A stretch of DNA of 49,568 bases from Candidatus Delongbacteria bacterium (lineage in GTDB: Bacteria > UBA4055), in NCBI GenBank assembly GCA_003252515.1, contig QKDR01000143.1, positions 1 to 49,568 on the forward strand, in the 5' to 3' direction. How positions within the stretch are numbered: position 1 is the stretch's first letter; every line of letters begins with the position of its first letter. Shown piece by piece: positions 24,476 to 26,043 of the stretch. Under the pieces are notes generated by a model. That model did not search any database, was not told the origin of the DNA, and saw only the letters and a list, made by a program, of their open reading frames with translations. Position numbers and translations under genes: made by a program.

Positions 24476-24507
24476 TAATAAAATTGAAAAAGTGGAGAAA
24501 ACTGTAA

Positions 24508-26043
24508 GTGAAAACTATATTAAAAGTGGTATTATTAACAGGATTGTTAGGTAATTATATTTGGGGAACGACGATTGACGATCCTGTCGGAATAGGCAGG
24601 ATAAGTTTTTTGTCCGCAGAATGGGATAATGCCTACAATATTGATATATCAAGAAATACGATCTCAGAACATATTTCAAGAAACGAAGCTACGGTCCTTT
24701 TTATGTTCTATGCATGTATGTCCTGAACAGGATTAGCGATACTGCCGGAGGCAGTCAATCTTCAGAAGGCATTAAGATCGCAAAAAAACAACCTCCAGTA
24801 TTTCACTGTTGGAGGTTCTACAAATATTTCACGATACGAAGAGCTGCTTGAATTTAAGATCATTAATGACCTCTATTTCCCTTTATCAACTTTTTTTGAA
24901 CTCGGATACCTTTATACAGATTATTTCCCGAATACATTCACTTTCATTGGTAAATACAATCATATAATCGGCACTCTGGATGCGGACGCGTCAGTTGAAG
25001 ACATCGAGATAATGCTGAACAGAACTGCCTGTACTTTCAATGATATTTATGCCTTGAAATTCAATGACAGGCTATTACTTACCGACACAACAGAAACGAT
25101 CAATCTGAACGAAATATTTTATATCGGAGATATATCGAATGTTGAGTTTCAGATCAAGGAACAGGATAATCTGATTCCTGTTGTATCAGAGATAGATGGC
25201 AGTAAGCTTATTTTAAATAAAACTGACTTTCCGGGTTACGCCAGACTTAAAATTATAGCCAAACCTAAAGATAAGAAATATTATTGCCAGTTCGACCTTG
25301 AGATAATTAATCCGGGGTCTATGTATGAAGATTTTGAATATTCTGATTTCAGCGAATCATCTTTACCGTGGATAAACGATCAGCGCGAGCCCTGGTATGT
25401 AACAAACGAAGCTTCTTATCTCGGATCTTCATCATTACGGTCAGGAAATATCCTGCCCGGTCAATCATCTTCTGTCGGCTTTGATCTTGATCTGAAAGAG
25501 CCCGGCACTTTAGTTTTTGCTTATAAAACATCTACTAGACCTTATTTTGACAGGCTGATATTTTCAATAGACGGGCTGATTATTTCGGATCTTGAAAGTC
25601 CGTATCTCTGGTCTGACATGAACGATTGGAGAGTTCTTTCTTACAGCATACGTGCGGGAGAAAGATCAATAAAATGGGAATATAAAAAAGATGTTTATGA
25701 CCCGATGAATGAAGATGCTGTATGGATTGATGCTGTAGTAATACCTGATAAATTTAATAAGAACAGTATCTCAGCTGTTAACGACAAATCTTTATTATAT
25801 GCGCATCCGAACCCGTTCAATCCTGTTACGGAGATCACATTTGAGCTGCCTGACAAAATCCATTCTGAACTTATAATCTTTGATTCAAAGGGAAGAGAGG
25901 TCGAAAAATTATTTAGCGGAGACCTTGAGAAGGGTAAATATAATTTCAGCTTTAACGGAAGCAGATATTCAAGCGGTTTATATTATTCCGTCTTAAAATA
26001 CGGGAACAAAGTTCTGACGAATAAATTAATTCTGACTAAATAG
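24508..26043 (+). CDS. Secreted selenoprotein: thioredoxin-like CxxU domain with T9SS-type sorting tail
   Basis: One continuous frame of 511 residues, interrupted only by TGA at 24724-24726 (residue 73). GTG start; signal peptide about 1-20. Then a thioredoxin-like domain (about 25-168): the strand TVLFMFYA leads straight into C70-M-S-U73, and the C-terminal half has the cis-Pro-like YFPNTFTFIG. The frame stays open and domain-like on both sides of the TGA, which is followed by a SECIS-like hairpin. After this come an Ig-like segment (about 185-268), a jelly-roll domain (about 272-415, with DWRVLSYSIRAGERSIKWEY) and a cargo sorting domain (about 430-511, HPNPFNP to TNKLILTK). Predicted to be a cell-surface or secreted redox enzyme. 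The alternative is a recent Cys-to-stop mutation. Confidence 0.8.
24724..24760 (+). promoter_or_regulatory. UGA selenocysteine codon and bacterial SECIS-like hairpin
   Basis: After the UGA, 20 bases lead to a 3-base loop GGA (24747-24749) closed by ACTGCC/GGCAGT (24741-24746 and 24750-24755); GAT/ATC extends the stem across a 2-base bulge. A G at the first loop position and a distance of roughly 16-37 bases are the known demands of bacterial SelB-binding SECIS elements. Confidence 0.7.

Follow-up and report, generated by a model that had tools for sequence, protein, structure and literature searches.

Most bacterial selenoproteins are enzymes of the cytoplasm or the periplasm. A review of 2026 counts 119 prokaryotic selenoprotein families or subfamilies, which include UxxC TlpA-like proteins, peroxiredoxins of the TxxU and CxxU types and a TonB-receptor selenoprotein, and none of the 119 is listed as a cargo of the type IX secretion system (T9SS) or with its sorting tail (PMC13188914). 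Among the titles and abstracts listed in searches of the open-access literature, no paper describes such a protein, in which selenocysteine meets a sorting domain or type IX secretion, and none connects Delongbacteria with selenium.

The window analysed here is a stretch of 49,568 nucleotides from a Candidatus Delongbacteria bacterium (contig QKDR01000143.1). The protein described in this work shares with the catalogued TlpA-like and thiol-disulfide isomerase-like selenoproteins the thioredoxin fold, a predicted selenocysteine (Sec) and a bacterial SECIS element, and differs from them in its CxxU motif, as the catalogued proteins are UxxC or UGC and have no sorting tail listed (PMC13188914 Table 1). 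With the TlpA/ResA thiol-disulfide oxidoreductases (cd02966; PF00578/PF08534), its best Foldseek matches, it has in common that the active site directly follows the core beta strand; it departs from them by the putative Sec, located at the second position of the motif, by the loss of the cis-proline in its clade, by an insertion after the motif, and by the added beta domains and sorting tail. The TonB-dependent receptor FCYXU and the MucD-like protease are likewise selenoproteins whose annotation points to the envelope or to secretion (PMC13188914, PMC2398784), but they belong to other protein families and are not described as T9SS cargo. The parts are of known kinds, while the combination, the scale and the shift of the Sec position are, as far as could be checked, new.

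The sequence-only reading of this locus had proposed a single frame of 511 codons running through one TGA, and the sequence bears this out, with the TGA at codon 73 as the sole internal stop (coordinates of all features are given in the table). The GTG start is immediately 3' of an in-frame TAA, and the context of codon 73 is ACMSU, i.e. CxxU. Mechanical ORF calling recovers just the downstream piece 25012-26043 of the gene. TGA is also a normal stop, ending 11 of the 38 main ORFs of the window, so the genetic code is not globally changed.

Features of the putative selenoprotein gene (positions in the window) and the evidence on which each is based
Feature	Position	Strand	Evidence
Putative selenoprotein gene	24508..26043	+	511 codons plus TAG, GTG start; single in-frame TGA, same TGA in seven orthologues
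Likely ribosome-binding site GGAG, 10 nt upstream of GTG	24494..24497	+	sequence
Hydrophobic signal-peptide-like segment, residues 1-20	24508..24567	+	sequence, judged by eye
Thioredoxin-like domain, ~residues 30-190	24595..25077	+	AlphaFold2 pLDDT 86; Foldseek best: TlpA/ResA thiol-disulfide oxidoreductases
Cys70 codon, first position of CxxU	24715..24717	+	invariant in 8/8 orthologous-group sequences
TGA, predicted selenocysteine codon 73	24724..24726	+	TGA in 8/8 sequences
Predicted bacterial SECIS hairpin with a GGA loop on a stem of 6 bp (ACTGCC/GGCAGT)	24741..24755	+	loop starts 20 nt after TGA
Beta-rich linker domain, ~residues 186-268	25063..25311	+	predicted strands
Jelly-roll (carbohydrate-binding-module-like) domain, ~residues 272-415	25321..25752	+	Foldseek matches to CBM16/CBM22 (target TM-score 0.54-0.58)
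C-terminal type IX sorting domain (PF18962), residues 434-508	25807..26031	+	Pfam match

The 13 genomes of the window's family, which are the same 13 that constitute its phylum in the data set, were searched for orthologues. Seven further full-length genes from three genera were found (34-52% protein identity to the window gene), each with exactly one TGA in the identical alignment column. This recurrence in 8/8 sequences of the orthologous group puts the TGA beyond chance and confirms the original observation. The MAGs bearing the gene are mostly Candidatus Delongbacteria, with one UBP11. The orthologues are syntenic: one flank carries, in the nearer genera, purE and glycosyltransferase genes, and the other an M20 peptidase and an MFS transporter wherever the contig extends that far. 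For the pairs close enough to be measured, dN/dS after the TGA is 0.09 (L010/L011), 0.10 (L014/L016), 0.13 (L014/L015) and 0.18 (L012/L013), and on this sequence comparison the 440 codons downstream of the TGA are under strong purifying selection. Relatives with a Cys codon at this position or with relaxed constraint after it, which the sequence-only reading had named as counter-evidence, were not seen: no Cys form occurs among the orthologues (8/8 TGA). A nonsense mutation, an assembly error or a pseudogene remnant would fit with TGA being an ordinary stop in the window's genome; nevertheless, eight genomes from three genera share the identical TGA, the codons after it are under purifying selection, and dozens of paralogues have it too, which leaves this explanation a negligible probability.

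The genes for Sec synthesis and insertion, which the sequence-only reading had suggested looking for, are all present in the window's own genome: SelA (E 3e-137), SelB (E 5e-114), SelD, itself with a TGA (E 7e-107), and a tRNA-Sec with UCA anticodon, which scored 56.1 bits against a gathering score of 47 in Rfam, though ARAGORN did not detect it in this genome. Phylum-wide, SelA is over the cut-off in 13/13 genomes, SelB in 11/13 and tRNA-Sec in 10/13, the genomes without it being all less than 90% complete, and SelD is found in 12/13, in 11 of them as a TGA-containing gene. Two SelB matches are present in the window's genome (G000:C181 and G000:C40), one of them partial and near a contig end; this could reflect a duplicate SelB or contamination, which is reported at 4.9%. 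Two Delongbacteria genomes (G004 and G006) have the Sec machinery with no detected member of the thioredoxin-like selenoprotein family described below. On the evidence of orthologues, machinery and stop usage we reject a pseudogene, a sequencing error and a reassigned TGA.

Published limits for the bacterial SECIS (bSECIS) are a loop of 3-9 nt with a G in the first two positions, a stem of 4-16 bp, a spacing of 16-37 nt and a minimum free energy (MFE) of at most -7.5 kcal/mol (PMC13188914). The hairpin noted after the TGA, which starts 15 nt downstream of it, is within all of them, with a 3-nt GGA loop, 6 bp, a spacing of 20 and -9.1 kcal/mol. Taken alone, the 47-nt element does not stand out in folding energy (z -0.69), so that the case for a SECIS rests on comparison. 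Among synonymous recodings keeping the protein, about 1% were as good as the window hairpin (p 0.0115); the median for the 54 sites tested was 3%, giving a very small combined p, albeit from relatives that are not independent of each other. In 47 distinct hairpins 77% of the cells of the first six stem pairs are paired; sliding the partner lowers this to 33-41%, and shuffling the columns to 52% (at most 60%). Across the paralogues compensatory changes with many pair types re-form the hairpin, and the mean stem score is 14.4 in the Sec genes versus 4.0 at the same site in Cys thioredoxins, which are mostly without a hairpin there. Because MAFFT shifted the hairpin registers, pairs were counted in ungapped segments aligned at the TGA. 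Rfam gave no SECIS family in the window gene, its two matches there being chance. The simple bSECIS rule gave no hairpin in three family members (L097, L124 and L127) and weak ones only in two (L125 and L126); L124, L125 and L127 are short (~270 aa), sorting-tailed proteins with no convincing simple-type bSECIS hairpin after the TGA, and may use an atypical SECIS element.

Sec insertion is itself deduced from sequence, and to that extent UGA could be read as a standard amino acid, e.g. Trp. The complete Sec machinery, the covariation of the SECIS, the alignment of codon 73 with a Cys of CxxC and the lack of a hairpin in the sole stop-free CxxC member argue against this, and we regard it as very unlikely compared with Sec at codon 73.

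The Sec had been placed at the second Cys of a thioredoxin-like CxxC, and profile-profile alignment supports this placement. With hhalign the window's CxxU clade (clade A) aligned to the UxxC clades with 98% probability, Cys70 falling on the Sec of UxxC and Sec73 on the Cys of that motif, which puts Sec at the second motif position in the window's clade. In the predicted structure residues 70-73 come directly after strand 61-67, where the first active-site helix begins. The full-length model gave Foldseek results dominated by the beta domains, and the thioredoxin matches were obtained with a separate model of the domain. A profile of the paralogues matches a thioredoxin-family protein of the PDB (E 1e-8), and paralogues match PF00578/PF08534. 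The window protein's own domain has no Pfam or NCBIfam family match at E 0.01, and no NCBIfam selenoprotein model matches the protein. The residue aligned with the cis-proline, which is invariant in the UxxC set, is not a proline in clade A. The window protein is expected to work like a TlpA-type oxidoreductase; strict membership of the TlpA family is not claimed, because the cis-proline is absent in the clade and there is no Pfam or NCBIfam thioredoxin match.

Sec in a thioredoxin-like fold is also the arrangement of the Sec peroxiredoxins (TxxU) and of Prx-SUH (CxxU), and the sister clade of the window's clade (clade D) has TFSU, the TxxU layout. Unlike the TxxU peroxiredoxins, the window protein carries Cys at the T position; the signature PxxxTxxC/U does not hold in clade A, which has Cys for Thr, and the match of the window protein to the peroxiredoxin profile is insignificant (E 0.32). 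A link to peroxiredoxins is suggestive in clade D and has no significance for the window protein. L033 and L042 of the sister clade read ITFSUGSMC, i.e. the peroxiredoxin-like TxxU with a Cys four residues on (UxxxC), and are possibly a peroxidase branch.

Cys70 and Sec73 are the only conserved Cys or Sec positions and should therefore cycle between thiol-selenol and selenenylsulfide. A non-redox role of Sec73, in metal binding, in selenium storage or delivery or in a structural surface protein, would agree with the lost cis-proline of clade A, with the single conserved Cys besides Sec and with the outcome that no reductant partner was found. Such a role is improbable, since a thioredoxin fold with CxxU, and with UxxC in its paralogues, has the layout typical of redox proteins (PMC13188914).

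Downstream of the thioredoxin-like domain, the jelly-roll seen in the sequence-only reading is matched by Foldseek to CBM16/CBM22-type modules, and the type IX sorting tail that it named is over the Pfam cut-off for Por_Secre_tail (27.7 bits versus 27). The "Ig-like" segment stood in part: beta strands are predicted at about residues 186-268, with no Pfam Ig domain there. Of the T9SS genes, whose presence had been suggested for checking, two central components were searched, SprA/Sov and PorV, and both are over the cut-off in 13/13 genomes of the phylum. TlpA-like proteins are classically periplasmic, and this, with a weak match of FlgD_ig to the tail, would fit a true selenoprotein that stays in the periplasm and works like the periplasmic TlpA/DsbE, its C-terminal domain being an adhesion or folding module. 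Por_Secre_tail is however found in 41/41 full-length members scanned, one of these (L122) from another phylum, and SprA and PorV are present, so that we consider a periplasmic location unlikely and export to the surface the better reading.

The window gene was thus rightly recognised by the sequence-only reading, which missed that it is one of dozens of paralogues. A scan of the genomes with the single window protein gave no matches, and an alignment-based scan succeeded. With a profile of 22 paralogue domains at least 48 TGA-bearing members were found in 11/13 Delongbacteria genomes, up to seven per genome, and 47 members were read in detail. Some are in tandem (G005:C74, G011:C50 and G010:C355). 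Together with its one Cys member, the Delongbacteria set forms a clade with support of 97/96; within it the window's CxxU clade is supported at 100/94, and its UxxxC sister at 100/99. The remaining clades are UxxC, as are most members, and the window's clade is CxxU, which means that Sec changed place within the family. Most UxxC genes have the SECIS loop 17 nt downstream of the TGA, and the CxxU clade has it one codon further, at 20 nt. The sole CxxC member found in Delongbacteria (L118:2881-3420, on G002:C184; ETWCVPC) has the sorting tail and no SECIS hairpin, and either replaced Sec by Cys or retains an ancestral Cys. Sec/Cys pairs are seen with this one Cys paralogue (CVPC) and with the CxxC of distant TlpA proteins. 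It is probable that Delongbacteria run an expanded extracellular selenoproteome of at least 48 lineage-specific, T9SS-tagged thioredoxin-fold proteins, almost never replaced by Cys forms, with the Sec moved between UxxC and CxxU and the SECIS loop one codon further on in the CxxU clade.

Outside the phylum, L122:1608-3422 (on G013:C35) is a TlpA-like UxxC selenoprotein that bears a type IX sorting tail; it comes from a phylum represented by one genome in the data set, and the combination of Sec and sorting tail is thus not confined to Delongbacteria. Two further genomes outside the phylum carry UxxC selenoproteins of 660-710 aa (L120:1832-3961 and L121:1730-3709), exported-looking and with proline/threonine linkers, in which no sorting tail was seen.

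Taken as a whole, the frame, the conserved TGA, the covarying hairpin, the machinery, the predicted fold and the sorting domain, all read from sequence, are best explained by a selenoprotein exported via the type IX system and acting as a TlpA/ResA-like redox enzyme; selenium insertion, export and redox activity are what we infer from them, and we hold this explanation to be highly probable. Sec would be inserted at UGA codon 73 in the cytoplasm, directed by the downstream hairpin with SelB and tRNA-Sec. The putative signal peptide would then lead the protein across the inner membrane. The type IX system would bring it to the outer face of the cell or into the medium, and the enzyme would be held at the surface by its jelly-roll and sorting domains. 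The catalytic part would be the TlpA/ResA-like thioredoxin-fold domain, in which Cys70 and Sec73, passing from the reduced thiol-selenol to the S-Se selenenylsulfide and back, may reduce an extracellular disulfide, polysulfide or peroxide.

As relatives carry dozens of similar surface-tagged genes, Delongbacteria appear to carry out extracellular selenium chemistry, and addressing a whole family to the surface implies the investment of a costly amino acid in redox reactions outside the cell, where no NADPH-driven reductant is known. This raises the questions of what reduces these proteins, what their targets are and why Cys is not tolerated. The natural series of UxxC, UxxxC, CxxU and one CxxC makes Sec positions comparable within one fold. 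For annotation, the family is a warning that standard gene calling truncates dozens of its genes at the TGA.

Two neighbourhood observations may be added. In one genus (g7; G011:C3 and G012:C84) selA is found about 2-3 kb from the orthologue of the window gene, a possible functional association. The window itself carries, at 1-372 on the minus strand, a ResA-like Cys thioredoxin (NFWASWCKPC) running off its left edge.
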